In this document: one piece after another, positions 6,858-57,335 of the stretch
How positions within the stretch are numbered: position 1 is the first letter of the stretch
Layout of the letters: each line of letters starts with the position of its first letter
Source of the DNA: Propionivibrio limicola
Lineage (GTDB): Bacteria > Pseudomonadota > Gammaproteobacteria > Burkholderiales > Rhodocyclaceae
NCBI RefSeq assembly: GCF_009469695.1
Contig: NZ_SSSR01000019.1
Location: forward strand, 1-64,000
Length of the DNA: 64,000 nucleotides
Direction of reading: 5' to 3'
The notes under the pieces: generated by a model
What the model was told of the DNA's origin: nothing
Database searches by the model: none
The model's input: only the letters and a program-made list of their open reading frames with translations
Translations under genes and position numbers: made by a program

Positions 6858-6924
6858 CGTGGCAGTTCTAGGGTTGGTCTGGGTTTTTCCGCTGCGCCCG
6901 GGGTGGGGGACGCCGGCGGCAAGC

Positions 6925-6933
6925 TGCTATGAT
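6925..6933 (+). promoter_or_regulatory. extended -10 promoter for pmbA
   Basis: TGCTATGAT fits the extended -10 pattern TGnTATAAT with one mismatch and lies 31 bases before the pmbA start. No good -35 element is seen, as expected for this class. Confidence 0.4.
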
Positions 6934-6963
6934 AACGAGTTTCAACGTCCGAGCCTTCTTCAC

Positions 6964-8346
6964 ATGCCGAGAAAAGCCGCTACAACTGTTTCTGCCGCCG
7001 CTGCAAACCGCTTCAGCCACGAGCCTGGCACGCTCCAGCAGTTGGCTCAGGATGTCCTGGATCTGGCCCGGAACGCCGGCGCCAGCGATTGCGAAGTCGA
7101 TGTCTCGGAAGGTTTCGGGCAGTCGGTGACCGTCCGTTGCGGCGAGGTTGAGACCATTGAGTACAACCGCGACAAGGGGATCGGCGTCACGATTTATCTC
7201 GGTCAGCAGAAGGGCCATGCCAGTACCTCCGATTTTTCGTCAAAGGCGCTGCGCCAGACGGTCGAGGCGGCGGTGAATATCGCCCGTTTTACGGCGGCCG
7301 ATGACTGTGCCGGCTTGCCCGAGGTGGAGCTTTTTGCCACGCGTGAACAGGGCTTCGCTGATCTTGATCTGTACCATCCCTGGTGCCTTTCGGTCGACGA
7401 GGCGGCTGACCTGGCGCGTCGCTGCGAGGACGCCGCCTTTGCCGTCAGTCCGGTGGTTAGCAATTCGGAAGGAGCGACGGTCTCGGGGCAAGAGGGGCAT
7501 TTCGTCTCGGCCAACAGCCGTGGCTTCATGGGCGGCTATCCGACGTCGCGACACTACCTTTCCTGTTCGGTGATCGCCGGTGCGGACGAGCAGATGCAGC
7601 GCGACGACTGGTACTCGACCTCGCGTGATCCGGCCAGACTCGCGACGCCGGAGGAGATCGGCGACTATGCGGCGCGCCGCGCACTGGCCCGTCTTGGCGC
7701 CCGCAAGATCAAGACCTGCAAGGTGCCGGTGCTGTTCGAAGCGCCACTGGCATCTTCCCTGATCGGCAGTTTTGTGCGCGCCGTCAGTGGCAGCAGTCTG
7801 TATCGGAAGTCTTCTTTCCTTGTCGATAGTCTCGGCAAGCGGGTCTTTTCGAAAAAAGTGCAGATCAGCGAGCGCCCGCATTTGCCGGGTGCCTTGGCCA
7901 GCAGCCCGTTCGACAACGACGGCGTGGCGACCCGCGACCGGGAAGTGGTCGAAGACGGCGTTTTGCAGGGCTACTTTCTGAGTGCCTATACCGCCCGCAA
8001 GCTGGGGATGCAGACGACCGGCAATGCCGGTGGGTCGCACAATCTGATTGTCCGTCCGGGCAAGCGCGATTTCGCCGGGTTGCTCAAGAAAATGGAGCGC
8101 GGCCTGCTCGTGACCGAGCTCCTCGGCCAGGGAATCAACTATGTGACGGGCGACTATTCGCGCGGCGCGGCCGGCTATTGGGTCGAGAACGGCAAAATCC
8201 AGTATCCCGTCGAGGAAATCACGATCGCCGGCAACCTGCGCGACATGTTCCGCAACATTGCGTCGATCGGCAACGATGTTCTCGTGCGCGGTTCACGGCA
8301 GGTTGGTTCGATCCTCGTCGAGGAAATGAAAGTCGCCGGTAGTTGA
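6964..8346 (+). CDS. pmbA: PmbA/TldE subunit of the TldD-TldE metalloprotease
   Basis: 460 residues. PmbA (TldE) pairs with TldD, encoded at 43078 in this window, to form a heterodimeric cytosolic protease; in E. coli it matures microcin B17 and degrades the antitoxin CcdA. Family blocks include 'GEVETIEYNRDKGIGVTIY' near residue 60 and 'GDYSRGAAGYWVENGKI' near the C-terminus. As expected, it lacks the HExxxH zinc motif carried by TldD. The start MPRKAATT at 6964 avoids an upstream extension (to 6799) that would run over the promoter and into darP. Followed by dctP in the same direction, 84 bases away. Confidence 0.94.
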   Translation: MPRKAATTVSAAAANRFSHEPGTLQQLAQDVLDLARNAGASDCEVDVSEGFGQSVTVRCGEVETIEYNRDKGIGVTIYLGQQKGHASTSDFSSKALRQTVEAAVNIARFTAADDCAGLPEVELFATREQGFADLDLYHPWCLSVDEAADLARRCEDAAFAVSPVVSNSEGATVSGQEGHFVSANSRGFMGGYPTSRHYLSCSVIAGADEQMQRDDWYSTSRDPARLATPEEIGDYAARRALARLGARKIKTCKVPVLFEAPLASSLIGSFVRAVSGSSLYRKSSFLVDSLGKRVFSKKVQISERPHLPGALASSPFDNDGVATRDREVVEDGVLQGYFLSAYTARKLGMQTTGNAGGSHNLIVRPGKRDFAGLLKKMERGLLVTELLGQGINYVTGDYSRGAAGYWVENGKIQYPVEEITIAGNLRDMFRNIASIGNDVLVRGSRQVGSILVEEMKVAGS

Positions 8347-8430
8347 TTTGACGGCCCGGTGGAGGACCACGTTTATGTTTTTCGCCCTGTCTGCAGGTTG
8401 GTTAATAACAATGTTCGGAGAAGAGAAACC

Positions 8431-9519
8431 ATGGAAAGACGTTCCTTTTTGAAGTCGGCCGGTGTCGGATTGGCTGCGGGTGCGGCCGCCATGCCGGCGA
8501 TCGCGCAGAATTCCAGTTTGCCGGTGATCAAGTGGCGGATGGCCTCGAGTTTCCCGAAAAGCCTCGATACGCTTTTCGGCACGGGTGAGTTCCTGATCAA
8601 GCGCCTCTCCGAAATTACCGGCGGCAAGTTCCAGATCCAGCATTTCGCCGCCGGCGAGATCGTGCCGGGGCCGGGCGTGCATGACGCCGTGCGCGACAAC
8701 ACCGTCGAGCTGGGTCACACCTGCGGCTACTACTATTACGGCAAGGACCCGACATACTGCATCGACACGGCGATTCCGTTCGGCATGAACAACCGGCAGA
8801 CCGATGCCTGGTACCGCGAGGGCAACGGTTCCAAACTGATGAACGAATTTTTCGCCAAGTCGAACATCATCGCCTTCCCGTGCGGCAATACCGGCGTCCA
8901 GATGGGCGGTTGGTTCCGCAAGGAAATCAAGTCGGCGGCCGACCTTAAAGGACTGAAGATGCGCATCGCCGGGCTGGCCGGTGCGGTGCTCTCCAAAGTG
9001 GGTGTTGTGCCGCAGCAGATCGCCGGGCCGGATATCTATCCATCGCTGGAAAAGGGAACGATCGACGCCGCCGAGTGGGTCGGCCCGTACGACGACCACA
9101 AGTTGGGCTTCAACAAGGTGGCCAAGTACTACTACTACCCGGGCTGGTGGGAAGGCGGTCCGCAAGTCTCGGTGTATGTGAATACGAAGAAATGGGCTTC
9201 GTTGCCCAAGGAGTATCAGGCGGCCTTCCGCGCCGCCTGCGCCGATGCGCACACCGAGATGCGCACGAAGTACGACGCCAAGAATCCGGAAGCGCTCAAG
9301 AAACTGGTCGCCGCTGGTGCCCAGCTGCGCCCTTTTCCGAAGGATGTGATGGAGGTCTGCTACAAGGCGGCGATGGAGCTCTATGCCGAGATTTCGGCCA
9401 AGAATCCGAACTTCAAGCGTGTTTATGACGACTACAAGAAGTTCATGGACGATCAGAATGCCTGGTTCCGCGTCGCCGAAGGCTCGTACGCCAATTTCAT
9501 GTTCAGTCGTCGGAAATAA
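8431..9519 (+). CDS. dctP: TRAP transporter substrate-binding protein, TAT-exported
   Basis: Periplasmic solute receptor of a tripartite TRAP transporter. 362 residues. The N-terminus 'MERRSFLKSAGVGLAAGAAA' followed by 'MPAIAQ' is a twin-arginine-type signal (RRSFLK) with a signal peptidase site after AQ. 'DLKGLKMRIAG' and 'AAEWVGPYDDHKLGF' are family motifs; the latter resembles the TakP/lactate-type receptors that bind small 2-oxo or hydroxy acids, so a monocarboxylate ligand is inferred. The ATG at 8431 has GGAGAAGAG upstream. Its membrane partners dctQ and dctM are on the opposite strand and face it, an unusual arrangement. Confidence 0.92.
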   Translation: MERRSFLKSAGVGLAAGAAAMPAIAQNSSLPVIKWRMASSFPKSLDTLFGTGEFLIKRLSEITGGKFQIQHFAAGEIVPGPGVHDAVRDNTVELGHTCGYYYYGKDPTYCIDTAIPFGMNNRQTDAWYREGNGSKLMNEFFAKSNIIAFPCGNTGVQMGGWFRKEIKSAADLKGLKMRIAGLAGAVLSKVGVVPQQIAGPDIYPSLEKGTIDAAEWVGPYDDHKLGFNKVAKYYYYPGWWEGGPQVSVYVNTKKWASLPKEYQAAFRAACADAHTEMRTKYDAKNPEALKKLVAAGAQLRPFPKDVMEVCYKAAMELYAEISAKNPNFKRVYDDYKKFMDDQNAWFRVAEGSYANFMFSRRK

Positions 9520-9530
9520 AGCCGATCATC

Positions 9531-9566
9531 CACAAAAAAACGCCGGCAAGTCCGGCGTTTTTTGTG
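9531..9566. terminator. bidirectional rho-independent terminator between dctP and dctM
   Basis: A7 tract, CGCCGG (9541-9546), loop, CCGGCG (9552-9557), then T6; CAC/GTG flank the whole. The A and T tracts make it functional on both strands, serving convergent dctP and dctM. Confidence 0.88.
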
Positions 9567-9577
9567 GGTCTAACCCG

Positions 9578-11017
9578 CTACGGTGTCTGCGCTGCCGCTC
9601 CTTCGGCCGGGAGCGAGAAATCCGGCGGAGCGTATTCGTAGCCTTCCACCTCGATCTCGATCTTCTCAAGATCGACCTGCTCCTGCTTCTCCAGATTGAA
9701 TGTCACCATTTGCGGCAGGGCGATGACCAGGCAAACCATCAGGATCTGGATGCCCACGAACGGAATCGCGCCCCAGTAGATATCCGACGTTTTGACCGAA
9801 ACCGGCGCTACGGAACGCAGGAAGAACAGGGCAAAACCGAACGGCGGGTGCAGGAAGGAGGTCTGCATGTTGATGCCGAGCAGAACGCCGAACCAGATCA
9901 GGTCGATGCCGAGTTTTTCGGCTACCGGGCCGAGCAGCGGCACGACGATGAAGGCCAGTTCGAAGTAGTCGAGGAAGAAGGCGAGCACGAAGATCATGAT
10001 GTTGACCACGATCAGGAAGCCGATCTGCCCGCCCGGCAGGTCGCCGAGCAGGTGTTCGACCCAGTGGTGGCCTTCGGCGCCGTAGAAGGTCAGCGAGAAG
10101 ACGCGGGCACCGATCAGGATGAAGATGACGAAGGTGGTCAGCTTGGCGGTGCTCTCCATCGCCTGCTTGAGCAACTGGCGGTCGAGTCGCTTGCGCAGGA
10201 CGGCCATGATGAGTGCGCCTGCGGCCCCCATCGCCCCGCCTTCGGTCGGCGTGGCAATGCCGAGGAAGATCGTGCCGAGGACGAGGAAAATCAGCATGAG
10301 CGGCGGCAGCAGCGTCGTCAGTACGCGCAACATCAACTTGCTGCCGTAGGCCGTGCGGGCGGTGGCTGGCAGTGCCGGAACCCATTGTGGTTTGAAGAAG
10401 GCGATGCCTGCCACGTAAAGAACGTAAAGGCTGGTCAGAACGAGGCTGGGAATGAGTGCGCCGGCGTACATGTCATTCACCGGCTTGCCGAGCTGGTCGG
10501 CCATGATGATCAGCACCAGTGACGGCGGAATGATCTGGGCGAGCGTGCCGGAGGCAGCGATGACACCGGTCGCGAGCCGCTTGTCGTAGCCGTAGCGGAG
10601 CATGATCGGCAGGGAAATGAGTCCCATCGAGATGACCGATGCGGCGACAACGCCGGTAGTGGCCGCGAGCAGCGCACCGACGAAGATGACGGCGTAGGCC
10701 AGGCCGCCGCGCACCGGGCCGAAGAGCTGGCCGATCGTGTCGAGCAAGTCCTCGGCCATGCCGGAACGTTCGAGAATCAGCCCCATGAACGTGAAGAACG
10801 GGACGGCGAGCAGGTTCTCGCTGGCCATGACGCCGTAGATGCGGTCGGGCAACGCCTGGAAGAGTTGCGGGCCGAAAAGCCCGAGTTCGATGCCGATCAA
10901 GCCGAAGACGATGCCGTTGGCAGCCAGGGCAAAGGCGACCGGAAAGCCGGTCAGGAGAAAGACGACCATCGAGGCGAACATGATGGGCGCCATGTTGGCG
11001 ATGAGAAACTCGGTCAT
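9578..11017 (-). CDS. dctM: TRAP transporter large permease subunit
   Basis: 479 residues and strongly hydrophobic with about twelve membrane segments: the DctM channel subunit that couples sodium or proton entry to solute uptake. Family motifs include 'GFPVAFALAANGIVFGLIG' near the start and 'GVLLGINMQTSFLHPPFGFA' near residue 400. The hydrophilic C-terminal tail of about 45 residues (rich in E, P, A) is longer than in many homologues. Its ATG overlaps the dctQ stop by four bases (ATGA), so the two are translationally coupled. With dctP across the terminator it probably forms one monocarboxylate transporter. Confidence 0.93.
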   Translation of the reverse strand: MTEFLIANMAPIMFASMVVFLLTGFPVAFALAANGIVFGLIGIELGLFGPQLFQALPDRIYGVMASENLLAVPFFTFMGLILERSGMAEDLLDTIGQLFGPVRGGLAYAVIFVGALLAATTGVVAASVISMGLISLPIMLRYGYDKRLATGVIAASGTLAQIIPPSLVLIIMADQLGKPVNDMYAGALIPSLVLTSLYVLYVAGIAFFKPQWVPALPATARTAYGSKLMLRVLTTLLPPLMLIFLVLGTIFLGIATPTEGGAMGAAGALIMAVLRKRLDRQLLKQAMESTAKLTTFVIFILIGARVFSLTFYGAEGHHWVEHLLGDLPGGQIGFLIVVNIMIFVLAFFLDYFELAFIVVPLLGPVAEKLGIDLIWFGVLLGINMQTSFLHPPFGFALFFLRSVAPVSVKTSDIYWGAIPFVGIQILMVCLVIALPQMVTFNLEKQEQVDLEKIEIEVEGYEYAPPDFSLPAEGAAAQTP

Positions 11018-45252: not shown

Positions 45253-46197
45253 TCAGCCTTCCGACACCGGCATCAGGAAGTCCTGACTGATCCCCTCGCC
45301 GAGTTCGAAGATGTCGTCCATGAAGCCGGTGAGGAATTCGTGCGTTCCGGTTTTCAGGATGTCGTCGATGCGGGCGTAGTGGATGCGTGCATGCAGCATG
45401 CCGGCGCGGCGTTCGGTTTCGGCCGAATGGTCGTTCTTCACCGAGTCGAGGATGCGCACGATGCCCTTGGTGCAGGCGTGCAGCGAACGCGGCATGTCGA
45501 GGCGGAGAATGAGCAGCTCGGCGACGCGCGCCGGGGTGATGACGTCGCGATAGACCTTGCGATAGACCTCGAACGCCGACAGCGAACGCAGCAGCGCGCC
45601 CCATCGGTAGAAATCCGACGTTCCCTCGTCGCCGTTCGTGCGCAGTACGTGGTACTTCACGTCGAGGATGCGCGCCGTGTTGTCGGCGCGCTCGATCTGG
45701 CCGCCGAGGCGGATGAAGTGCAGCGCCTCGTCCTGCAGCATGGTGCCGAAGGTGACGCCGCGCGTGACGGCGGCGCGCAGTTTGACCCACTCGAAGAACT
45801 GGCCGATGCCGGTGGTCATCAGCTGCTCGAATTTCTGTTCGCGCAGTTCGATCCAGGTGGCGTTGGCGCTCTCCCACGTTTCCGAAGTCAGCGTGCCGCG
45901 CACGGCGTGGGCATTCTCGCGGGCGGCGCGCAGGCAGCTGTGGATCGATGACAGGTTGTTCGGGTCGGAGACCATGAAGCGCAGGACGTTCTCGGCGTTG
46001 ACCTTGTCATAGGATTCGGCGAAAGCCGTCTCCAGGCTATTGAGAGCGAGGATGGCGCGCCAGTTCTGGTTTTCGGCGGCGACGGGCTTGGGCACGAGCG
46101 ACATCTGGTAGGTGACGTCGAGCAGACGGGCCAGGTTTTCGGCGCGCTCGGTGTAGCGCGACATCCAGTAAAGGTGATCGGCGGTGCGGCTTAGCAT
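45253..46197 (-). CDS. alpha-E domain protein (DUF403)
   Basis: 314 residues, all helical. 'MLSRTADHLYWMSRYTERAE' at the N-terminus is the alpha-E signature; the basic/acidic pair in RYTERAENLARLLDV is conserved. Alpha-E proteins always travel with circularly permuted ATP-grasp enzymes and are predicted partners in peptide ligation. 'RLGGQIERADNTARILDVKY' repeats the motif internally, pointing to a duplicated helical unit. Eighteen bases after the ATP-grasp gene. Biochemical function unproven. Confidence 0.92.
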   Translation of the reverse strand: MLSRTADHLYWMSRYTERAENLARLLDVTYQMSLVPKPVAAENQNWRAILALNSLETAFAESYDKVNAENVLRFMVSDPNNLSSIHSCLRAARENAHAVRGTLTSETWESANATWIELREQKFEQLMTTGIGQFFEWVKLRAAVTRGVTFGTMLQDEALHFIRLGGQIERADNTARILDVKYHVLRTNGDEGTSDFYRWGALLRSLSAFEVYRKVYRDVITPARVAELLILRLDMPRSLHACTKGIVRILDSVKNDHSAETERRAGMLHARIHYARIDDILKTGTHEFLTGFMDDIFELGEGISQDFLMPVSEG

Positions 46198-46215
46198 TCT
46201 GTTCTCCCGGCTTTC

Positions 46216-47634
46216 TTAGTCTTCAAGAACCCACGTGTCTTTCGTACCGCCGCCCTGCGACGAGTTGACGACCAGCGACCCCTCGCGCAGTGCGACGCGC
46301 GTCAGGCCACCGGGCACCATCTGAATCTCCTTGCCGGAGAGCACGAACGGGCGCAGGTCGAGGTGGCGCGGGGCAATGCCTGATTCGACAAAGGTCGGGC
46401 AGTTGGAGAGTGCCAGCGTCGGCTGGGCGATGTATTTTTCCGGCGCGGCGAGGATGCGCTGGCGGAAGTCCTCGATCTGCGTCTTCGTCGATGCCGGGCC
46501 GACGAGCATGCCGTAGCCACCGGCGCCATGCACCTCCTTGACGACGAGTTCCGGCAAGTGGTCGAGCGCGTATTGGAGGTCGTCCGGCTTCCTCAGCATG
46601 TAGGTCGGCACGTTGTTGAGCAGCGGCTCCTCGCCGAGGTAGAAGCGCACCATGTCCGGCACGTACGGGTAGATCGACTTGTCGTCGGCGACGCCGGTGC
46701 CGATGGCGTTGGCCAGCGTGACGCGGCCGGCGCGGTAGGCCGAGAGCAGCCCCGGCACGCCGAGCATCGAATCCTTGCGGAAGGCGAGCGGATCGAGGAA
46801 GTCGTCGTCGAGGCGGCGGTAAATGACATCGACGCGCTGCGGCCCCTGCGTCGTGCGCATGAAGACGGTGTCGTCCTTGACGAACAGGTCGCGCCCTTCG
46901 ACAAGCTCGACACCCATCTGCTGGGCAAGAAAGGTGTGCTCGAAATAGGCGCTGTTGTACGCGCCCGGCGTGAGCAGGACGACGGTCGGATCCTTTTCGA
47001 CGCCGTGCGGCGCGACGGTGCGCAGGTTTTCGAGCAGCATGTCCGGATAGTGCGCGACCGGAGCGATCTTGTGCCGGGAGAAGAGTTCGGGGAAGAGCCG
47101 CATCGTCATCTTGCGGTCTTCGATCATGTACGAGACGCCGGACGGCACGCGCAGGTTGTCTTCGAGCACGTAGAACTCGCCTCCCCCCGCACGCACCAGA
47201 TCGACGCCGGCGATATGCGCGTAAATGCCGGCCGCGACATCGACGCCCATCATTTCCGGGCGGAACTGGGCGTTGTTGAGCACCTGTTCGCGCGGAATGT
47301 GGCCGGCTTTCAGAATCGCCTGCTCGTGGTAGATGTCGTGCAGGAAGGCGTTGAGCGCCTTGACGCGCTGGCGCAGCCCTTTTTGCAGTTGCGTCCATTC
47401 ATCGGCCGGAATGATGCGCGGAATGATGTCGAAGGGAATCAGCCGCTCCTTGCCCGCTTCCTCGCCATAAACGGCGAAGGTGATGCCGACGCGATGGAAG
47501 GCGATGTCGGCTTCGGCTCGCTTGCGCGCGATCTTCTCGGCCGGGGTCGCGGCCAGCCAGTCGGCATAGGCGCGATAGTGCGGCCGCACGGCGCCTGATG
47601 CATCGTACATTTCGTTGTAAAAGTTTATGCTCAT
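46216..47634 (-). CDS. circularly permuted ATP-grasp protein (DUF404/DUF407)
   Basis: 472 residues. Predicted peptide ligase of the circularly permuted ATP-grasp class. Motifs: 'LTPGAYNSAYFEHTFLAQQM', 'IYRRLDDDFLDPLAF', the glycine-rich nucleotide loop with lysine 'VVKEVHGAGGYGMLVGP', and the terminal 'GGGTKDTWVLED'. The ATG at 47634 (MSINFYNEMYD) follows GGAG by three bases; an earlier in-frame start at 47685 would add 17 residues and run over a hairpin. Downstream alpha-E partner is 18 bases away. The substrate peptide is unknown. Confidence 0.92.
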   Translation of the reverse strand: MSINFYNEMYDASGAVRPHYRAYADWLAATPAEKIARKRAEADIAFHRVGITFAVYGEEAGKERLIPFDIIPRIIPADEWTQLQKGLRQRVKALNAFLHDIYHEQAILKAGHIPREQVLNNAQFRPEMMGVDVAAGIYAHIAGVDLVRAGGGEFYVLEDNLRVPSGVSYMIEDRKMTMRLFPELFSRHKIAPVAHYPDMLLENLRTVAPHGVEKDPTVVLLTPGAYNSAYFEHTFLAQQMGVELVEGRDLFVKDDTVFMRTTQGPQRVDVIYRRLDDDFLDPLAFRKDSMLGVPGLLSAYRAGRVTLANAIGTGVADDKSIYPYVPDMVRFYLGEEPLLNNVPTYMLRKPDDLQYALDHLPELVVKEVHGAGGYGMLVGPASTKTQIEDFRQRILAAPEKYIAQPTLALSNCPTFVESGIAPRHLDLRPFVLSGKEIQMVPGGLTRVALREGSLVVNSSQGGGTKDTWVLED

Positions 47635-47679
47635 GATCTCCGCCGGTGCTGTTGTTTCATGCGATATGAGCAGAAAGCG

Positions 47680-47701
47680 TGCCACCGGGTTTCCGGTGGC
47701 A
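47680..47701. other. perfect 9-base hairpin inside the ATP-grasp cluster
   Basis: TGCCACCGG (47680-47688), loop GTTT, CCGGTGGCA (47693-47701), in the 222-base gap between the transglutaminase gene and the downstream ATP-grasp gene. No T tract follows on the leftward strand, so it may stabilise or process the message rather than end it. The rest of this gap shows no gene. Confidence 0.5.
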
Positions 47702-47847
47702 TGGGCCTAAGGCGGCGGGCCGATTCACCAGCGCCGGCGCGGCGTGTGAGACGCAAGACACCAGATCGCCGTCGGGCATAGCGATACGTCATGCACTAAT
47801 GTTGTGCGGGAATTCTCCCGTCGGGTGGGGGAATGCTGTTCAGCTAA

Positions 47848-47865
47848 GCCGAATGGCTATTCGGC
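47848..47865 (-). other. hairpin over the transglutaminase stop codon
   Basis: GCCGAAT (47848-47854), loop GGCT, ATTCGGC (47859-47865). The leftward gene's TAG (47857-47859) falls in the loop and stem edge. Could shape termination or 3' end stability. Confidence 0.35.
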
Positions 47866-48789
47866 ACTGAAATGAGGCGCCTGCGTCGCGACTTCCCCGG
47901 CGGGCATGACGGTGACCGCCACCTCTGGCATTTTGGCGTCGCCGCCGAGGATGACGCCGCGCAGCGGGGAAATGTCGCCGAAGTCGCGGCCCCAGGCGAG
48001 GGTGATGTGCTGGGTGTCGGGCAGCAGGTTGTTGGTCGGGTCGAAGTCGACCCAGAAGCCGCCTTCCTTGTCAGGGCAGAAGACCGAGATCCAGGCGTGC
48101 GAGGCGTCGGCGCCGATCATGCGCGGCTGGCCGGGCGGGGGCTGGGTCAGCAGGTAGCCGCTGACATAACGCGCCGCCAGCCCCAGCGAGCGCAGACAGG
48201 CGAGCATCAGGTGGGCGAAATCCTGGCAGACGCCGCGTTTTTGTTCGAGCACCTTGAGCACCGGTGTGGCGATGGTCGTGGCCTTGGGGTCGAACTTGAA
48301 TTCCGTGAAGATCTTCTTCATCAGCGCCTGCACCGCTTCGAGCAGCGGCCGCCCCGGCGTGAAGCACGGCGCGGCGTAGGCGGAGAATTCGCGCTTGACG
48401 CGCACGTAGGGCGATTCGAAGAGATAGGGCGCGGCGTCGAGTTGAACCGGGTGGGCACCGTAAGCCAACCCGTCGCGCACGGTTTCCCAAGCCGGCGACT
48501 TGGCGAACGGCCGGGCCGTCAGGTGTGGATGCACATCGATCAGGCTTTCGGCGCGCACCAGCAGGCTGTCGTGCGGCGCTTCGATGGCGAACTGGCGCAG
48601 CGGATTGCCGAAACTGTCGAGCCGCGTTCCGTCATGCGTCGGCGTCGGGATAATGTCGATGGCGTGTTCGACGCACGTCTGCCAGGGGCAGTCGCGCGGC
48701 GTCAGATGCAGCAGCTGCTGCGAGAGCGACACCGGACATTCGTAGTCGTAGCGCGTCTCGTGAATGATGTGGTAGCGGGCCGTTGGCAT
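47857..48789 (-). CDS. transglutaminase-like cysteine peptidase
   Basis: 310 residues. N-terminal bacterial transglutaminase-associated domain ('YHIIHETRYDYECPVSLSQQ') then a transglutaminase core with Cys188 ('KRGVCQDFAHLMLACLRSLG'), His231 ('DASHAWISVF') and Asp250 ('VDFDPTNN'), a full triad. In such clusters these are predicted peptidases that undo or trim the ATP-grasp product. No signal peptide, so cytosolic. Thirteen bases after the fused ATP-grasp gene. Confidence 0.92.
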   Translation of the reverse strand: MPTARYHIIHETRYDYECPVSLSQQLLHLTPRDCPWQTCVEHAIDIIPTPTHDGTRLDSFGNPLRQFAIEAPHDSLLVRAESLIDVHPHLTARPFAKSPAWETVRDGLAYGAHPVQLDAAPYLFESPYVRVKREFSAYAAPCFTPGRPLLEAVQALMKKIFTEFKFDPKATTIATPVLKVLEQKRGVCQDFAHLMLACLRSLGLAARYVSGYLLTQPPPGQPRMIGADASHAWISVFCPDKEGGFWVDFDPTNNLLPDTQHITLAWGRDFGDISPLRGVILGGDAKMPEVAVTVMPAGEVATQAPHFSAE

Positions 48790-48802
48790 GATGTGGGCGG
48801 GG

Positions 48803-51373
48803 TCAGGCGGCCAGCGTTTGCCGGCCGACGTCGCCGATGTGCGTGAAGTAGCGCATGGCCAGACGGTCGGAAAGGTTGGCCGCAGCGTTCGCGATTTCGT
48901 CGAGCAGGTCGGCGAGTTTGAGGCAGGTGCCGCAACTCTGACAGTCGCCGAAATCGCGGCTCTCGAAGCACTTGAGGTCGAATGCGGCCAGTCTTTGCAC
49001 GGCGTCGTCCAGCGAGTCGCCGATTTCGTGCGACAGCCGGGAAAGGTAACGCTGGGCGCCTTGCAGCTGGAAGATGACCGAATGCGGATTGGTGTCGTCG
49101 AAGACGATCAGGTCGAGCGCCGGCATCAGTTCAGGCTGCGCCATGTAGCGCGAACGGTAGGTGATGATGCTGTCGGCGAGTTCGAGCAGCCATTCGATGC
49201 AGCCGGGGGCGCGCGTCGACTGCAGGCGCAGGAACTGACTGATGGCGTTGGCGAGGAAGATCAGGCGCTCGATGCGGCGGCCGATGATCAGGAAGCGCCA
49301 GCCGTCGTCGCGCGTCATGTCGTCCATGGCGAAGCCGGCCAGCGCCGAGGCGGCGAGCAGCATCTGGTCGAGGAAGGCGAGGGCGTCGCGGATCGCCGGT
49401 TTCTGCTTGTTGTAGCCCTGCAACTGGTGTTGCAGGCGGTTGAGGGCGTGCCAGTTGTCGAGCGAAAAACGCTCGCGCACCTGCGCACCGACCCAGAGCA
49501 GACGGCGGACGTTGCCGGCCAGTCCGTCGCCCCATTCGCTGGTGCACAGCCCGGCGAGAAGCCGGCCTTCGATTTCGGCGCGCGTCGGTATTTTGGGCGG
49601 AGTGTTCGCGGGTTCTTTCGACGTCGTTTCCTGTTGAGGCAGCTCAGTTTTTTCTTCCGTATTTTGAGGCAGCAAGCCGAGCGCCTTGCATACCTCAAAC
49701 GCTGACAGCAGCGCCGGTATGTCCTCCGGGCCGGCGTCGACGAGGCGCGACAGGCCGACGCGCAGCAGGCGGGCGCCGTCCTCGCAGCGTTCGCTGTAGC
49801 GTCCGAACCAGAACAGGTTCTCGACGACGCGCGACGAGAGGTTGCTGCCGCTACGCACCAGATCGGCCTTGCCGAGCAGCGGCTTGATCAGGCTGAAGGT
49901 GCTGGGGGCGACGTCGCCCAGCACCCAGGTGTCCTTGCTCGACCCGCCGCGCTGCATCGAGATCATGCGCGCGTTGATGGCCGACGTGACACGGGTGAGT
50001 CCGCCCGGCATGACGGTGTAGCCGTTCGCCGTCGCGGCGACGAAGACGCGCAACGCGACGCCACGCGGCAGCAGGCGGCGCTCGTGCACCTTGCTCCAGG
50101 TCGGCGCCTGCGAGAAGCGCACGAGTTCTTGCGCCACGTAGGCCTGCGGACGCGTGCGCAGGCGATCGATCATCTCGTCGCGCTTGGCGCCTTTCAGTTC
50201 GTCGCCGAACGTCGGTTCGAGATGCTGTGACGGGAAGGCGCCCTTGATGACGAGCCGGTCGAGGTTGTCGATCACGAAGTCGAGCGCGCTCTCCTCGCCG
50301 CACCACCAGGTACCGACCGACGGCATGCGCAGTTCTTCGCCGAGCAGTTTTTCGCAGACGCCGGGCAGGAAGCCAGGCAGCGCCGCCGATTCGAGCAGGC
50401 CGCTGCCAAGGGCGTTGGCCATCAGCACGTGGCCGGCGCGCACGGCCTGCAGCAGGCCGGGAATGCCGAGCGCCGAATCGCCGCGCAATTCGAGCGGATC
50501 GCAGAAATCGTCGTCGAGGCGGCGTACGATGGCATGGACGCGCCTTAAGCCGGTCAGCGTTTTCAGATAAACGCGCTGGTTGCGCACCGTCAGGTCCTGC
50601 CCCTCGACGAGCGGGTAGCCGAGATAGCGGGCGAGGTAAGCGTGTTCGAAATAGGTTTCGTTGTACGGGCCCGGCGTGAGCAGCACGACGAGCGGTTTCT
50701 GGCCGTCTTCGCTGGTTGGCGCCCAGTGTGCGAGATTTTCCTGGAGGGCGGCGAAGAAGGCGGCGAGGTGCTGGACGCCGAGGTCGCGGAACTGCTCGGG
50801 AAAGACGCGCGAGACGATGACGCGGTTTTCCAGCGCATAACCGGCGCCGGACGGTGCTTGCGTGCGGTCGCCGATCACCCACCAGCGGCCGTCGGGCGAA
50901 CGGGCGAGGTCGGCGGCGTAGAGGTGCAGCCAGGTGTCGCCGGGTGGGCGGATGCCCTGGCACGACCAGAGATAGTTGTTGTGCCCGTAGACGAGGGCTG
51001 GCGGAAGATTGCCATCCTTCAACAGCGTTTGTTCGCCGTAAAGGTCGACGAGCAGGGCGTTGAGCAGTCGGGCCCGCTGGGTGACCGCCGCCGAGATTTC
51101 GTCCCACTCGCCCGAGGAGAGAATCAGCGGCAACGGATCGAGCTCCCACGGCCGGTCGGCGCCTTCCGGGTCGGCATAGACGTTGTAGGTGATGCCGTTT
51201 TCGAGAATGCGGCGGTGCACGTAGTCGGTGCGGTGCCGCATCTGCTCGGCCGTGGCCGTGCTCAAGTGCTCCAAAAAGCCGCGCCAAGCCGGACGAAGCT
51301 CGCTGCCTTCAGCGAGCATTTCGTCGAAGCGGTCGGTTCGGCGCGGATAGTTCAGGAGCAGGGAGCGCGGCAT
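48803..51373 (-). CDS. fused circularly permuted ATP-grasp and alpha-E protein
   Basis: 856 residues. Residues about 1-500 are a second ATP-grasp ('LTPGPYNETYFEHAYLARYL', 'IVRRLDDDFCDPLEL', 'GGSSKDTWVLGD'); from about 505 an alpha-E domain ('SSRVVENLFWFGRYSERCED') runs to the end, split by a Pro/Thr/Glu-rich insert near residues 570-600. It is a fused paralogue of the two genes at 46216 and 45253. The glycine-rich loop of the separate copy is missing: after 'RLVIKGAFPSQHLEPTFG' there is no GxGG. The lysine is kept. This difference suggests altered nucleotide binding or substrate. ATG at 51373, 25 bases after the DUF2126 gene. Confidence 0.92.
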   Translation of the reverse strand: MPRSLLLNYPRRTDRFDEMLAEGSELRPAWRGFLEHLSTATAEQMRHRTDYVHRRILENGITYNVYADPEGADRPWELDPLPLILSSGEWDEISAAVTQRARLLNALLVDLYGEQTLLKDGNLPPALVYGHNNYLWSCQGIRPPGDTWLHLYAADLARSPDGRWWVIGDRTQAPSGAGYALENRVIVSRVFPEQFRDLGVQHLAAFFAALQENLAHWAPTSEDGQKPLVVLLTPGPYNETYFEHAYLARYLGYPLVEGQDLTVRNQRVYLKTLTGLRRVHAIVRRLDDDFCDPLELRGDSALGIPGLLQAVRAGHVLMANALGSGLLESAALPGFLPGVCEKLLGEELRMPSVGTWWCGEESALDFVIDNLDRLVIKGAFPSQHLEPTFGDELKGAKRDEMIDRLRTRPQAYVAQELVRFSQAPTWSKVHERRLLPRGVALRVFVAATANGYTVMPGGLTRVTSAINARMISMQRGGSSKDTWVLGDVAPSTFSLIKPLLGKADLVRSGSNLSSRVVENLFWFGRYSERCEDGARLLRVGLSRLVDAGPEDIPALLSAFEVCKALGLLPQNTEEKTELPQQETTSKEPANTPPKIPTRAEIEGRLLAGLCTSEWGDGLAGNVRRLLWVGAQVRERFSLDNWHALNRLQHQLQGYNKQKPAIRDALAFLDQMLLAASALAGFAMDDMTRDDGWRFLIIGRRIERLIFLANAISQFLRLQSTRAPGCIEWLLELADSIITYRSRYMAQPELMPALDLIVFDDTNPHSVIFQLQGAQRYLSRLSHEIGDSLDDAVQRLAAFDLKCFESRDFGDCQSCGTCLKLADLLDEIANAAANLSDRLAMRYFTHIGDVGRQTLAA

Positions 51374-51398
51374 GGGGGCAAGGTCGGCGAGGGGCTAC

Positions 51399-54300
51399 TC
51401 AAAAGCGGCGCAAGTCTAGCGTAAACGGGAAATTGGCATTGCGCGGCGCGTCGGCCACCTCGATCCGTCCCGGCGTGTGGCCGAGCGTTGAAAAGCGCGC
51501 CAGCCGGCGGCCTTCCGCCTCGTAGGCGTTGATCGGGTAGCTTTCGAAGTTGCGACCGCCCGGATGTGCTACGTGGTACTCACAGCCGCCGAGCGAGCGC
51601 TTCATCCAGGTGTCGACGAGGTCGAAGGTGAGCGGCGCATGGACGCCGATCGTCGGGTGCAGGCAGGAGGGCGGTTGCCAGGCGCGGTAGCGCACGCCGG
51701 CAACGAATTCGCCGACTTTTCCCGTGTCCTGCAGCGGCACCGGGCGGCCGTTGCAGGCGAGCACGTAACGGTCGCTCGCCATGCCGGTGGCCTTGATCTG
51801 CAGGCGCTCGACCGATGAATCGACGTAGCGCACGGTGCCGCCGGGCGCCCCTTCCTCGCCCATGACGTGCCACGGCTCCAGCGCATGGCGCAGTTCGACC
51901 TCGATACCTTGCGCGGCGAATTGCCCGTGCAGCGGGAAGCGGAACTCGAAATGCGGTGCGAACCAGCGGGCGTCGAAGGCGTAACCGGCACTGTTGAGCT
52001 CGGCGATGACATCGTTGAAATCCTGCTGCACGAAATGCGGCAGCATGAAGCGGTCGTGCAGTTCGGTGTTCCAGCGCATCAGCCGTGGCGGGGCGTACGG
52101 CGCATGCCAGAAACGGGCGATCAGGGCGCGCAGCAGCAGTTGCTGGGCCAGCGACATGCGCGCATGCGGCGGCATCTCGAAGGCGCGCATTTCGAGCAGG
52201 CCGAGGCGGCCGGTGGCGCTGTCCGGCGAGTAGAGCTTGTCGATGCAGAATTCGGCGCGGTGCGTGTTGCCGGAAGAGTCGATCAGCAGGTTGCGCAGGA
52301 TGCGGTCGATCAGCCAGGGCGGAACCGAATTTGCCAACAGCGGGCCGGCTTCGGGCAGCTGCTGGAAGGCGATCTCCAGTTCGTAAACCGAATCGTTGCG
52401 CGCTTCATCGACGCGCGGCGCCTGGCTGGTCGGGCCGATGAATAGGCCGGAGAACAGGTAGGAGAGCGACGGGTGGTTATGCCAGTACGAAATCAGGCTG
52501 CGCAATACATCCGGCCGGCGCAGGAAGGGCGAGTCGAGTGGCGTCGCCGCGCCAAGCACGAAGTGGTTGCCGCCGCCGGTGCCGGTGTGGCGGCCGTCGA
52601 GCATGAATTTCTCGCTGGTCAGGCGCGCCAGGCGGGCCGCCTCATACAGGTGCGTTGTGCGTTCGACGAGTTCGTCCCAGTCGGCGCACGGCTGGATGTT
52701 GACCTCGATGACGCCGGGGTCGGGCGTGACGCTGAATTTGACGAGGCGCGGGTCGGACGGCGGCTCGTAGCCCTCGAGAATCACCGGCGTCGCCAGTTCC
52801 TCGGCCGTGGCTTCGACGGCGGCGACGAGTTCGAGGTAGTCGTCGAGGCTTTGCGTCGGCGGCATGAAAATGTAGAGGATGCCGTCGCGCGCCTGCGCCG
52901 ATATGGCCGTGCGCGTGATCCAGCTCGCGGACTCCTTGCTGTGCGGCCAGCGTTCGGATACGGAACCGGTTGCGTTGCTGGCCGGAGTGTTGGACTGTGG
53001 AGCTTCCCCGGATCGCCTGGCGAACTGGCGGCGGATTTCAGCCGCGGCGCGGAGCGGCGGGAACGACTGGGTCGGGTCGGCCGGGTTGATGTACGGGTAG
53101 TCGCTTTTCGCCACCCAGGGTTGCGAATCGAGCGGCAGACGGTAGCCGACCGGCGAGTCGCCGGGGATCAGGTAGCAGCGTTCGCTGCGCAGAAACCACG
53201 GCCCGGTCTGCCAGCCGCCGCCGGTGTTCTTCATCACCGGCAGCACGTGGCCGACGATTGCGTCGAGGCCTTGGCCGAAAACGCGTGCCAGTCGATCGCG
53301 TTCGAGCGGGTCGTCGAGCTTCGAATCATGCGGATCGACATTGGCCGGCAACCGGCGTTCGCGCCACAGGTAATAGAAGGCATCCTCGAAGGTCGGGAAA
53401 ACGTACTGGCCATCGAGATCGAGCCGGTCAGCGACGCGGCGCAGGAAGCGGCCGGCGAGCTTCTCGTCGGCGCCGTAGGGTTTGGTCTCGTCGGCGACCA
53501 GCGCCGGATCGTTCCAGATCGGTTGGCCGTCGCGCCGCCAGAAGCAGTTGAGCGCCCAGCGCGGCAGTTGTTCGCCCGGATACCACTTGCCCTGTCCGAA
53601 ATGGGCGAGACCGTGCGGCGCGTATTTCTCGCGCAGGCGGTGGAAAAGGTCGGCGGCGCGGATGCGTTTGGTCGGGCCGAGCGCTTCGGTGTTCCATTCG
53701 GCGCCGTCGGGATCGTCGATCGAGATGAAGGTCGGCTCGCCGCCCATGGTCAGGCGCACGTCGCTGTCGGCGAGGTCGGTGTCGATGCGGTGGCCGAGCG
53801 CTTCGATGCCAGCCCACTGCTCTTCCGTGTACGGCTTGGTGACGCGCGGCGCTTCCCACACACGTTCGATCTTCATCGTGTGCGAGAACTCGCATTCGCA
53901 CTCGTCGGAAAAGCCGGTGATCGGCGCAGCCGAGGACGGCTCGGGCGAGCAGGCGATCGGGATGTGGCCTTCGCCGGCGAAGAGGCCGGAGGTCGGGTCG
54001 AGACCGACCCAGCCGGCGCCCGGCAGATAGACCTCGGTCCACGCGTGCAGGTCGGTGAAATCAACCTCGGTGCCGGAGGGGCCATCGAGCGATTTGACGT
54101 CCGGCGTGAGCTGGATCAGGTAGCCGGAGACGAAGCGCGCCGCCAGTCCGAGGTGGCGCAGCGTTTGTACCAGCAGCCAGGCCGAGTCGCGGCAGGAGCC
54201 GGTTTTCTTGGTCAGTGTTTCTTCCGGCGTTTGCACTCCCGGCTCCAGTCGGATGACGTAGCCGACGGCCTGTTGCACGCGCTGGTTGAGGTCGACGAGA

Positions 54301-54731
54301 AAGTCGACGCTCGGCTTGGCGGTGTGCGGAATGCCGGCGACAAACTTGTCGAGCAGCGGCGTCGCCGGCAGCGTTTCAAGAAAGGGCAGCAGTTCGTGGC
54401 GCTGCGCGGCGTCATAGGCAAATGGAAAGTCCTTGGCCGACGGTTCGAGAAAGAAGTCGAACGGATTGATCACCGACAATTCGGCGACGAGATCGACCTC
54501 GACCTTGAATTCGCGTGTTTTCTCCGGGAAAACGAGGCGCGCCAGATAGTTCGATTGCGGATCCTGCTGCCAGTTGATGAAGTGCTCGCCCGGCGTGACC
54601 TTCAGCGAGTAACTCAGGATCGGCGTGCGCGAGTGCGGTGCGGGGCGCAGGCGGACGATCTGTGGCGAGAGGCTGACCAGACGGTCGTAGCGATAGTGCG
54701 TTACGTGGGTGAGGGCAACATGAATCGACAC
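51399..54731 (-). CDS. transglutaminase/DUF2126 protein
   Basis: 1110 residues. N-terminal transglutaminase domain with Cys180 ('KKTGSCRDSAWLLVQTLRHL'), His229 ('DLHAWTEVYL') and Asp245 ('VGLDPTSGLF'); then DUF2126 from about residue 310 ('RLTMGGEPTFISIDDPDGAE') to the end, including 'HTGTGGNHFVLGA'-type blocks ('GRHTGTGGGNHFVLGAATPL'). Large proteins of this layout head many ATP-grasp/alpha-E clusters. GTG start at 54731 with GGAG six bases upstream. First gene of a five-gene leftward cluster. Catalytic role of DUF2126 is unknown. Confidence 0.93.
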   Translation of the reverse strand: MSIHVALTHVTHYRYDRLVSLSPQIVRLRPAPHSRTPILSYSLKVTPGEHFINWQQDPQSNYLARLVFPEKTREFKVEVDLVAELSVINPFDFFLEPSAKDFPFAYDAAQRHELLPFLETLPATPLLDKFVAGIPHTAKPSVDFLVDLNQRVQQAVGYVIRLEPGVQTPEETLTKKTGSCRDSAWLLVQTLRHLGLAARFVSGYLIQLTPDVKSLDGPSGTEVDFTDLHAWTEVYLPGAGWVGLDPTSGLFAGEGHIPIACSPEPSSAAPITGFSDECECEFSHTMKIERVWEAPRVTKPYTEEQWAGIEALGHRIDTDLADSDVRLTMGGEPTFISIDDPDGAEWNTEALGPTKRIRAADLFHRLREKYAPHGLAHFGQGKWYPGEQLPRWALNCFWRRDGQPIWNDPALVADETKPYGADEKLAGRFLRRVADRLDLDGQYVFPTFEDAFYYLWRERRLPANVDPHDSKLDDPLERDRLARVFGQGLDAIVGHVLPVMKNTGGGWQTGPWFLRSERCYLIPGDSPVGYRLPLDSQPWVAKSDYPYINPADPTQSFPPLRAAAEIRRQFARRSGEAPQSNTPASNATGSVSERWPHSKESASWITRTAISAQARDGILYIFMPPTQSLDDYLELVAAVEATAEELATPVILEGYEPPSDPRLVKFSVTPDPGVIEVNIQPCADWDELVERTTHLYEAARLARLTSEKFMLDGRHTGTGGGNHFVLGAATPLDSPFLRRPDVLRSLISYWHNHPSLSYLFSGLFIGPTSQAPRVDEARNDSVYELEIAFQQLPEAGPLLANSVPPWLIDRILRNLLIDSSGNTHRAEFCIDKLYSPDSATGRLGLLEMRAFEMPPHARMSLAQQLLLRALIARFWHAPYAPPRLMRWNTELHDRFMLPHFVQQDFNDVIAELNSAGYAFDARWFAPHFEFRFPLHGQFAAQGIEVELRHALEPWHVMGEEGAPGGTVRYVDSSVERLQIKATGMASDRYVLACNGRPVPLQDTGKVGEFVAGVRYRAWQPPSCLHPTIGVHAPLTFDLVDTWMKRSLGGCEYHVAHPGGRNFESYPINAYEAEGRRLARFSTLGHTPGRIEVADAPRNANFPFTLDLRRF

Positions 54732-54902
54732 ATTAGGCTCCGTAACTGTGATGGCGAGAGTTCGCTAGCAAAAGGCGAGCCAAAATGTTTCAAGCGGCTG
54801 GCATGGGGCGCGAAGCAAAGGGCGTGGCTTGGTGCACCGCGCAGGTGCATCGGCCGCACAAGTCGAGTGCGTCCGATGCCGGACCAGAGGCCGAGAGGCG
54901 GA

Positions 54903-55454
54903 TTAGCTGCCTTTGTTTTGCACCCACAGCACGTCGCCGCGCCCTTCGGCCTGGTTCAGCGTGCGGCCGAGGATGAACAGCAGGTCGGACAGGCGGTTGA
55001 GGTATTTGCGGGCGAAATCGGAAACCGGCTCGCTGTTGCCGAGATGGACAACCCGCCGTTCGACCCGGCGGCAGACGGAGCGAGCGAGATGGGCGAGCGA
55101 CGCGGCGCGCGTGCCGCCGGGGAGGATGAAATTCTTGAGCGGGCTCAATTCGGCGTTGAAGCGTCCGGCCTGCTCTTCGAGGCGCAGGATATGGTTTTCG
55201 CTGATGTAGGCCGAATTCGGGATGCAGATCTCGCCGCCGAGGTCGAACAGGTCGTTCTGTACGCTGAGCAAGGTTTCGCGGACGGCGTCGGGCAGGGTTT
55301 CGGCCAGCAGGACGCCGATGCAGGAATTGAGTTCGTCGACTTCACCGATGCAGTCGATGCGCAGGCAGTCCTTGGTGACGCGCGATCCGTCGCCAAGGCC
55401 GGTGGTGCCGGCGTCGCCGGTGCGGGTGACGATTTTTGAGAGACGGTTGCCCAT
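54903..55454 (-). CDS. PduO-type corrinoid adenosyltransferase
   Basis: 183 residues. Transfers the adenosyl group of ATP to cob(I)alamin to make coenzyme B12. N-terminal ATP-binding motif 'KIVTRTGDAGTTGLGDGSRV' and the active-site 'FILPGGTRAASLAHLARSVC' followed by 'RRVERRVV' are diagnostic of the PduO/CobO2 family (MMAB-like). No cobalamin riboswitch or B12-dependent enzyme is seen nearby. Lies upstream of, and in the same direction as, the DUF2126 gene with a 171-base gap that holds no gene. Confidence 0.94.
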   Translation of the reverse strand: MGNRLSKIVTRTGDAGTTGLGDGSRVTKDCLRIDCIGEVDELNSCIGVLLAETLPDAVRETLLSVQNDLFDLGGEICIPNSAYISENHILRLEEQAGRFNAELSPLKNFILPGGTRAASLAHLARSVCRRVERRVVHLGNSEPVSDFARKYLNRLSDLLFILGRTLNQAEGRGDVLWVQNKGS

Positions 55455-55646: not shown

Positions 55647-56528
55647 ATGGCATTCGATAAAGCGCTGCTCGACAGGTTGTCGGGCAACGAGGTCAAAAGC
55701 GTCAAACGCCTGATCGAGAAGGGCGTCACCATTCCGCCGCAACCGCGCGTACTCGTCGAGTTGGAGCAGAATCTGGCGAAGGGCGTCTCCGATGTGCGTG
55801 TGCTGGCCCGCGTCATCAGCCAGGACCCCGGGATTGTCGCCATGCTATTCAAGGTGGTGCAGAACGCCGCCTTCCGCAAATTCCAGCCGTTCGAATCGCT
55901 TGAACACATCCTGCAGGCGATCGGGTTGCAGCAGACGGGCAATCTGGTGCGGGCCATCGCGCTGGCGTCGTCGATGCCGGCCAAGCACAACCAGAAAGCC
56001 TTCGAAGCCTACTGGGCACGGTCGCGGACCATTTCCGAGCTGGCGATGATCATTGCTGACGAGCGGGTGGCCGTGTGCAACATCTTTCCCGATCAGGCTG
56101 GCCTGGCCGGCATCTTTCACGATTGCGGCGTGCCGGTGCTGATGCAGCGTTTCCAGACCTATTGCGCTGACATGCGGCTTGACCAGCCCGGGCACTGGCC
56201 CGACCTGGCCGAGGAGGATGCGCGCTTCAATGCTGACCATTGCGTGATCGGTTATCTCGTTGCCCGCCATTGGCGCTTGCCGGACTTTATTTGCGATTCC
56301 ATCCGGTATCACCACGATATCGGGCGCATTGAGCATCACGCGGCGCGTACCATGGTCGCCATTCTGCAACTGGCAATCCAGATGTATTACCACGATCTGC
56401 ATCAGCCCTACCCGGAATGGGCCGGAGTGCGCGCCGACGTGATCGAAGAGCTGGGCCTGGGCGACGAAACTTTGCCCGAATTCATCGATGTCGTCCTCGA
56501 TCGTTATCATTCGATGAACCAGGCCTGA
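55647..56528 (+). CDS. HDOD domain signalling protein
   Basis: 293 residues. The HDOD region (about residues 25-220) shows 'RVLARVISQDPGIVAMLFKV' and 'LAGIFHDCGVPVLMQRFQTY', related to HD phosphohydrolases but usually lacking the full metal site; here His-Asp of 'FHDCG' is present but the second ligand set is unclear. HDOD proteins are regulatory, often in c-di-GMP, motility or stress pathways. No other domain is attached. 36 bases before the PP2C gene, likely one operon. GGGGAG lies just before the ATG. Confidence 0.88.
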   Translation: MAFDKALLDRLSGNEVKSVKRLIEKGVTIPPQPRVLVELEQNLAKGVSDVRVLARVISQDPGIVAMLFKVVQNAAFRKFQPFESLEHILQAIGLQQTGNLVRAIALASSMPAKHNQKAFEAYWARSRTISELAMIIADERVAVCNIFPDQAGLAGIFHDCGVPVLMQRFQTYCADMRLDQPGHWPDLAEEDARFNADHCVIGYLVARHWRLPDFICDSIRYHHDIGRIEHHAARTMVAILQLAIQMYYHDLHQPYPEWAGVRADVIEELGLGDETLPEFIDVVLDRYHSMNQA

Positions 56529-56564
56529 GCGGTTTTCCAACTTCTGCACGGAGAGTAATGCGCC

Positions 56565-57335
56565 ATGGCCATCACCATTGACGCGTGTATCGCGCAGCAT
56601 CAGGGCGACCGCAAGGAGCAGCAGGATCGCGTGGCGCTTGTTCCGCATCCGCGCGGCGGTGGCGTGGCGCTGGCGGTGGTCGCCGACGGGATGGGCGGCC
56701 ACACCGGGGGGGCGCTGGCGGCGCAACAGGTCATCCACACGGTGCGCAACAATCTCGACCAGTTTTCTCCGCGTAGCGGCGATTTGCCGCGCGCTCTGTT
56801 GCAGTCGAGCCTCGATGAGGCACACCTGCTGATCAAGGCCTCGCGCTTCATCAACGAGAAGGACCCGCACAGCACGGCGGTCATGCTGTTGCTGCAACCG
56901 GGCCGGGTCAGCTGGGCGCATTGCGGCGACAGCCGCCTGTACCGGTTTCGCGGCGACAAGTTGCTGGCGCATACGGTCGACCATTCGTATGTCGAACAGC
57001 TGGTCGCGCGCGGCAAGATTACGGCCGAGCAGGCGCTCGTCCATCCCAACCGCAATATCCTGATCACGTCGCTCGGTGGCAACGACGTGCCGAAAGTCGA
57101 TTTCGGCGAATCGGACGACCTGCGCGGCGGCGATGCTTTTTTACTGTGCTCGGATGGGCTGTGGGGATATTTCGATGCCGCCGAACTCGGCGGCGTGATT
57201 GCCGCCTATCCGGCGCGCGAAGCCTCGCAGCACCTCATTGAGCGGGCGCGCAAGCGGGCCCAGGGCGCGGGCGACAATGTGTCGCTGGCCATTCTTAAAC
57301 TGGTCGAGGTGTCGGAGAAAAAGACGGCGAAGTAA
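56565..57335 (+). CDS. PP2C-family serine/threonine phosphatase
   Basis: 256 residues. Metal-dependent phosphatase with motifs 'VVADGMGGHTGGALAA' (metal Asp), 'WAHCGDSRLYRFRG', 'FLLCSDGLWGYFD' and 'GAGDNVSLAILKL' (last metal Asp). It resembles stand-alone Stp/PrpC-type enzymes. No serine/threonine kinase is next to it; partner is the HDOD gene upstream. Convergent with rhlE, 62 bases apart. Confidence 0.93.
   Translation: MAITIDACIAQHQGDRKEQQDRVALVPHPRGGGVALAVVADGMGGHTGGALAAQQVIHTVRNNLDQFSPRSGDLPRALLQSSLDEAHLLIKASRFINEKDPHSTAVMLLLQPGRVSWAHCGDSRLYRFRGDKLLAHTVDHSYVEQLVARGKITAEQALVHPNRNILITSLGGNDVPKVDFGESDDLRGGDAFLLCSDGLWGYFDAAELGGVIAAYPAREASQHLIERARKRAQGAGDNVSLAILKLVEVSEKKTAK

Follow-up and report, generated by a model that had tools for sequence, protein, structure and literature searches.

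An Anbu-free ATP-grasp, alpha-E and transglutaminase-like gene cluster in Propionivibrio limicola with predicted nitrogen control

The window analysed here, a 64,000-nucleotide stretch of Propionivibrio limicola DNA, carries a conserved five-gene cluster, confirmed as real, that belongs to a known predicted family built from circularly permuted (CP) ATP-grasp, alpha-E and transglutaminase-like proteins. The cluster is very likely a nitrogen-limitation operon, because conserved sigma54/NtrC-like sites lie upstream of its genes and its Burkholderia cenocepacia homologues depend on ntrC. We lean modestly towards reading it as an Anbu-free form of the predicted CP-ATP-grasp/alpha-E/transglutaminase amide-bond system, induced by nitrogen limitation. 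Added here are the nitrogen wiring of the locus, a conserved and probably dead ligase, the model-based assignment of a glutamine-synthetase (GS) fold to DUF2126, and an association with a zinc peptidase.

Gene order and distribution

All five genes lie on the minus strand (Table 1). An earlier note on this DNA had described five leftward genes separated by 13-25 bases and by one gap of 222 bases; open reading frames and Pfam placed every gene where it was said to be, and the measured gaps were 25, 13 and 18 bases, plus 222 bases if the stand-alone ATP-grasp gene (AG) begins at ATG 47634. The AG reading frame also offers an alternative start codon (GTG 47685), but ATG 47634 is favoured because a sigma54-like site overlaps the GTG. 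In the TGD and TG proteins, Pfam recognised DUF2126 (1356 bits) and Transglut_core (75 and 66 bits); in the ATP-grasp and alpha-E proteins it recognised CP_ATPgrasp_2 (566 and 521 bits) and Alpha-E (329 and 212 bits), the 329-bit match being that of the separate alpha-E protein (aE). NCBIfam provided a family for none of the five proteins. According to the Pfam scan, the cluster is flanked on one side by a cobalamin adenosyltransferase gene (54903-55454) and on the other by DUF2784, TldD/PmbA, nitrilase and YhdP genes; the TldD gene runs in the opposite direction and adjoins those for nitrilase and YhdP. HDOD and PP2C-type phosphatase genes lie near the cobalamin adenosyltransferase gene (55647-57335, + strand).

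Table 1. Genes and putative regulatory sites of the cluster, in window coordinates.
Feature	Position	Strand	Basis or remark
TGD (transglutaminase-like/papain-like domain fused to DUF2126 domain)	51399..54731	-	
AGaE (fused circularly permuted ATP-grasp and alpha-E)	48803..51373	-	
TG (second transglutaminase-like cysteine peptidase)	47857..48789	-	Pfam; triad
AG (stand-alone circularly permuted ATP-grasp)	46216..47634	-	Pfam, PDB 3n6x match, motifs
aE (alpha-E protein)	45253..46197	-	Pfam; ER motifs kept
sigma54 -24/-12-like promoter TGGCTCGCCTTTTGCT	54767..54782	-	35 bp before TGD start; 1 mismatch to TGGCACN5TTGCW
NtrC-like palindrome GCACCTGCGCGGTGC	54834..54848	-	exact GCACN6GGTGC
sigma54 -24/-12-like promoter TGGCACGCTTTCTGCT	47669..47684	-	34 bp before ATG 47634; 1 mismatch
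NtrC-like palindrome GCACAACATTAGTGC	47793..47807	-	1 mismatch

Relatives of DUF2126 were found in at least 593 stretches of the GTDB collection, and the closest among the matches listed came from Rhodocyclales (a Propionivibrio MAG with 79% in the best segment, Azonexus, and Accumulibacter). The window's order of TGD, AGaE, TG on one strand recurred in 72 of the 80 GTDB loci fetched, some of which also have AG-aE adjoining; in the other eight, the fetched DNA had no TG, or neither AGaE nor TG, and several of them sit at contig ends. Three ARRANGEMENTS were seen among the mapped loci. The first is AG-aE-TG-Anbu (L238, L256, L257), the second combines AG-aE with Anbu and TGD in a stretch lacking AGaE (L249-L254, L223, and L225, where AG-aE-TG and TGD-Anbu are divergent), and the third, the window's own, is TGD-AGaE-TG with or without AG-aE.

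Ligase-type and transglutaminase-like domains

The cluster holds three ligase-type domains, namely the ATP-grasps of AG and AGaE and the GS-fold domain of DUF2126. The stand-alone AG, which matched PDB 3n6x with 768 bits over 467 residues, is predicted from its sequence to be an active ATP-grasp ligase, with aE as its predicted helical partner. E175, D176 and N177 are invariant in all 58 stand-alone AG sequences (and in 31/31 of a smaller set), and K383 and G389/G390/G392 are conserved in 58/58. AG carries both the metal motif and the Gly-rich loop expected of an active ATP-grasp, the ligands being assigned by likeness only. For E and N as metal ligands, the assignment draws on likeness to the GspS motif and on the shared fold; we take the GspS ligands to be D318, E330 and N332, and the residues at these positions were confirmed in the E. 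coli K-12 sequence. A profile alignment of AG with E. coli GspS gave no significant match.

Our comparison did not bear out two working ATP-grasp ligases in the cluster: AGaE has lost the metal motif that AG keeps, and is probably a pseudo-ligase, i.e., a catalytically dead ATP-grasp, as judged from its sequence. N177 is replaced in 118/118 fused homologues (R in 110, H in 7, P in 1) and E175 in 117/118, such that E and N are both gone in 117/118; the lone homologue retaining Glu (L215) reads L-E-D-H. The Gly-rich loop residues G389/G390 are deleted in 100/118, D335 is replaced in at least 116/118, and K336 in at least 111/118. The window's own AGaE reads IGDR and has no Gly-rich loop. AGaE nonetheless keeps E249, D298, N326 and R445 in 118/118 (D162 in 106/118, K383 in 78/118), and selection therefore acts both on the fold and on some of the pocket. 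Its predicted structure (pLDDT 84) has a glutathione-synthetase-type ATP-grasp fold, and the neighbours of the ATP-grasp fold are glutathione, glutathionylspermidine and trypanothione synthetases. It is unlikely that AGaE is instead a diverged but active ligase using other metal ligands, as the retained D162, D298, N326 and K383 would allow, given how consistently E175, N177, D335 and K336 are replaced and G389/G390 deleted.

A role of DUF2126 as a mere partner of the transglutaminase was not supported: it models as a GS-fold ligase domain. Modelled within the whole TGD protein, it adjoins GS and gamma-glutamylmethylamide synthetase among known folds, a match that rests on the predicted model and for which Foldseek alone gave E 0.025 against the best GS. 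The Pfam title of DUF2126 is 'putative amidoligase', and Iyer et al. reportedly proposed it as an amidoligase in 2009; our literature search turned up no paper that we recognised as addressing the function of either DUF2126 or the fused AGaE. Both transglutaminase-like triads of the cluster are intact, as in the transglutaminase-like superfamily: C188/H231/D250 of TG is invariant in 75/75 rows, and the Cys-His-Asp triad of TGD is present in 81/83, the remaining two being gapped. Their activity could be that of a peptidase, an amidase or a transferase.

Anbu and other candidate peptidases

The window clusters CP-ATP-grasp, alpha-E and transglutaminase-like genes as in the Anbu operon, and the earlier note had remarked on the missing Anbu gene and suggested a genome search for Anbu/HslV-like genes. 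We ran this search on genome G000 (a Rhodocyclales relative; 97.9% complete, 56 contigs), where the sole proteasome-family match (E<=1) was HslV, with a gene that matches HslV structures. Two further queries, a protein of a related genome identified as Anbu because it matches PDB Anbu entries and an 11-sequence Anbu profile, found no match in G000, so that the absence seen in the window extends to the operon and the genome alike; the completeness and fragmentation of the assembly leave room for an Anbu gene in some missing piece. The hslV gene (G000:C5:11924-12439, L003) sits between frames resembling STAS and HDOD/HD genes, with no hslU frame apparent in the surrounding 3.5 kb.

Considering the absence of Anbu as an oddity proved untenable. 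In a 299-genome sample of the phylum, Anbu occurred in 120 genomes, DUF2126 in 96 and alpha-E in 172, and 34 of the 96 DUF2126 genomes had no Anbu. Within the window's genus, Anbu was matched in just 2/28 genomes (G048 and G059) and not in the other 26, several of the 28 being <90% complete, and its absence is therefore the local norm. Among 59 relatives (G000 included), Anbu was matched in 19 and DUF2126 in 33. We read Anbu as an accessory in other lineages that was probably lost here. The window's AG falls in a starred eight-row clade together with L115, an Anbu-linked AG, and L248, whose genome has Anbu elsewhere, which fits a loss of Anbu in the genus. In another Propionivibrio genome, the Anbu gene (L114:4522-5271) adjoins a leucyl-aminopeptidase-like frame, and none of the five cluster families was matched on its 9.7-kb contig. 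At L237 (G305, 6628-9733), the DUF2126 gene is apparently broken or strongly diverged, and this genome has Anbu.

It is conceivable, though doubtful, that AGaE and the second TG form a conserved module in Anbu's place, doing the job of the proteasome-like ring. The idea follows from DUF2126 enzymes falling into an Anbu-partnered lineage (AG, aE, Anbu and TGD, with no AGaE) and an AGaE-TG lineage. A tree of 81 TGD proteins set the eight rows that are partnered with Anbu and lack AGaE apart from all others by one branch (SH-aLRT 100); AGaE and Anbu shared a locus in seven of the rows, and the split is therefore not absolute. The 33 relatives with DUF2126 comprised 18 with AGaE only, eight with AGaE and Anbu, six with Anbu only, and one (75% complete) with neither. 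Across the 172 alpha-E genomes, Anbu was present in 59/103 with AGaE vs. 59/69 without (Fisher p ~1e-4, kinship uncorrected). In this sample AGaE was called from at least two alpha-E hits, plus G377, and checked directly in 13 genomes; the 11 of these with two alpha-E hits and neither DUF2126 nor Anbu each had an alpha-E match within an 811-1174 aa open frame. Replacement is contradicted by the 59 alpha-E genomes that have both AGaE and Anbu and by the 10 that have neither.

The earlier note had also suggested that the pathway may use another protease. Our survey yielded one candidate for an extra peptidase of the system, the zinc-ribbon metallopeptidase Peptidase_Mx (PF15887), found near the cluster in 7/85 representative loci (7/7 confirmed by Pfam). 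It occurred in 63/299 genomes, of which 62 had alpha-E and 50 had DUF2126 (kinship uncorrected), and at least 17 of these 63 genes, picked by eye, had an Anbu, alpha-E or DUF2126 gene 27-5634 bp away. As a substitute for Anbu, it was rejected, being no commoner in Anbu-less (16/34) than in Anbu-bearing (34/62) DUF2126 genomes (kinship uncorrected). The G000 gene (C1:58662-59399, L259) encodes an H-E-I-G-H motif and a zinc ribbon and is unlinked to the cluster; no sigma54 site (<=2 mismatches) was found in the 3.7 kb of L259, and a putative IS200-like transposase frame lies just downstream of the gene. With antisense frames filtered out, we examined the three largest of the 30 flank families listed for the 85 loci: the largest, at 26/85 loci, is made up of chained signalling proteins (GGDEF/EAL/PAS in the two members scanned), the second (10 loci) resembles LysR regulators, and the third (7 loci) is Peptidase_Mx itself.

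Predicted nitrogen control, proposed mechanism and known systems

The genes form two transcription units, TGD-AGaE-TG and AG-aE, each with a sigma54-like promoter and an NtrC-like site (Table 1). The TGGCTCGCCTTTTGCT-type site before TGD occurs at the same position in relatives, and the 16-mer TGGCACGCTTTCTGCT, which sits within the 222-base gap, is identical before AG in L245, L247 and L248 (same genus) and in L016 (Thauera). Over the whole window, sigma54-like sites (<=2 mismatches) were no more frequent than expected by chance (27 found vs. 31.9 expected), and it is therefore their position and conservation that carry weight. Across the GTDB loci, such a site preceded TGD in 53/76 and AG in 15/22 cases, compared with 3.7% and 2.5% in shuffled controls; the 76 TGD loci are not independent because many are close Pseudomonas relatives, and several loci without the site before TGD have AG-aE directly upstream. 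Ten further loci from the genus had the sigma54 site before TGD in 8/10 and before AG in 6/6, and the exact NtrC palindrome before TGD in 8/10, whereas the upstream regions of 1118 other long ORFs had the sigma54 site in 6.0% and the exact NtrC site in 0.5%. A sigma54 -24/-12 site with an upstream NtrC palindrome, as expected of an NtrC/sigma54 regulon, is kept in many beta- and gammaproteobacterial loci. In the wider phylum set, the sigma54 site preceded just 8/38 TGD and 7/17 AG genes, and in Anbu-partnered operons 2/7 and 4/7; the nitrogen wiring is therefore lineage-bound rather than family-wide.

Published expression data from relatives are consistent with this prediction. In the reported RNA-seq of a B. 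cenocepacia H111 ntrC mutant, I35_5080 (DUF404/407) was down by 8.2 log2 units, I35_5081 (DUF403) by 9.4, and the transglutaminase-like I35_5082 and I35_5083 by 9.4 and 6.0, and I35_5080-83 are named among the common sigma54/NtrC targets (PMC5491218). For Pseudomonas putida grown on nitrate vs. ammonium, increases of 4.4 log2 units for PP_2685 (Anbu) and 4.0 for PP_2688 (CP-ATP-grasp) are given, and a PP_2688 promoter reporter rose 3.7-fold under nitrogen depletion; the account of the reporter test singles out just two promoters, those of PP_2688 and urtA, as responsive (PMC8050072). Expression of Anbu operon proteins is elsewhere described as unchanged across conditions, except for Anbu in P. 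putida under nitrogen limitation (PMC5666114).

Based on these features, we propose that NtrC and sigma54 would turn on both units under nitrogen limitation, as shown for relatives and predicted here. Judging by their folds and motifs, AG together with aE, and likewise the DUF2126 domain with its GS fold, would spend ATP on coupling a carboxylate and an amine, yielding a small gamma-glutamyl-, peptide- or amine-type conjugate; ATP use has been reported for one ATP-grasp of the bercovieri Anbu operon (PMC6376114). TG and the peptidase domain of TGD could then cut or transfer the amide of this conjugate, allowing bound nitrogen to be stored, re-routed or released. AGaE, with its dead ATP-grasp and partial pocket, might serve as a substrate-binding scaffold or as an activator or regulator of AG. 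The earlier view of the locus as an uncharacterised ligase-plus-peptidase gene set is supported, with no Anbu found across G000.

A less probable explanation is protein tagging, in which the ligases would modify proteins with an amino acid or peptide, and the transglutaminase-like enzymes, along with Anbu or another peptidase where there is one, would remove this tag or process the tagged protein. This is a standing hypothesis for the Anbu operon (PMC6376114), and the co-occurrence of Peptidase_Mx with alpha-E would agree with it. However, among the five genes and the ten flanking ORFs scanned (one of them family-less), Pfam revealed neither a tag gene nor an AAA+ unfoldase nor a ubiquitin-like protein, and the ligases have small-molecule ligases as their neighbours in fold. 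The Anbu operon experiments described in PMC6376114 likewise detected no specific operon-protein interactions and no Anbu peptidase activity. Quite improbable is a nitrogen-scavenging amidase, whereby the transglutaminase-like enzymes would hydrolyse external or cell-wall peptides to ammonia and the ligases salvage the fragments: NtrC control in a relative and the co-occurrence of these domains with urea-metabolism domains in marine metagenomes (PMC3597751) would suit it, but Pfam identified no transporter among the five genes, and pure catabolism poorly explains three ATP-ligase-type domains.

If the cluster is indeed an Anbu-free, nitrogen-induced amide-bond system, its predicted control points to a growth condition in which its product could be sought. 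The ligase sites worth testing are those of AG and DUF2126, and AGaE should be treated as a pseudo-enzyme. A nitrogen-controlled version of the gene set that does without Anbu uncouples the chemistry of ligation from the proteasome-like ring.

The nearest known system is the Anbu operon, which, after Iyer et al. 2009, is described as comprising ATP-grasp, alpha-E, transglutaminase and Anbu (PMC5666114, PMC6376114). The predicted nitrogen control of the window resembles the induction reported for the P. putida Anbu operon under nitrogen limitation. Unlike the Anbu operon, G000 has no Anbu match, and the window adds the DUF2126 GS-fold ligase, the fused pseudo-ATP-grasp/alpha-E and two promoters. 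The I35_5080-5083 cluster of B. cenocepacia is also similar: its DUF404/407 and DUF403 genes and its two transglutaminase-like genes are controlled by NtrC/sigma54 (PMC5491218). The sampled genome G356, with a TGD placed as sister to the Burkholderia arboris protein, has TGD-AGaE-TG and AG-aE with no Anbu match, but differs from the window in having AG, aE and a further TG upstream of TGD. At the protein level, PDB 3n6x (Methylobacillus flagellatus, putative glutathionylspermidine synthase) is a close homologue of AG for which the structure only is available. Identity in the listed rows was 8-14% for glutathione, glutathionylspermidine and trypanothione synthetases, and 6-14% for glutamine synthetase and gamma-glutamylmethylamide synthetase, from both of which DUF2126 differs in being larger and fused to a transglutaminase-like domain.
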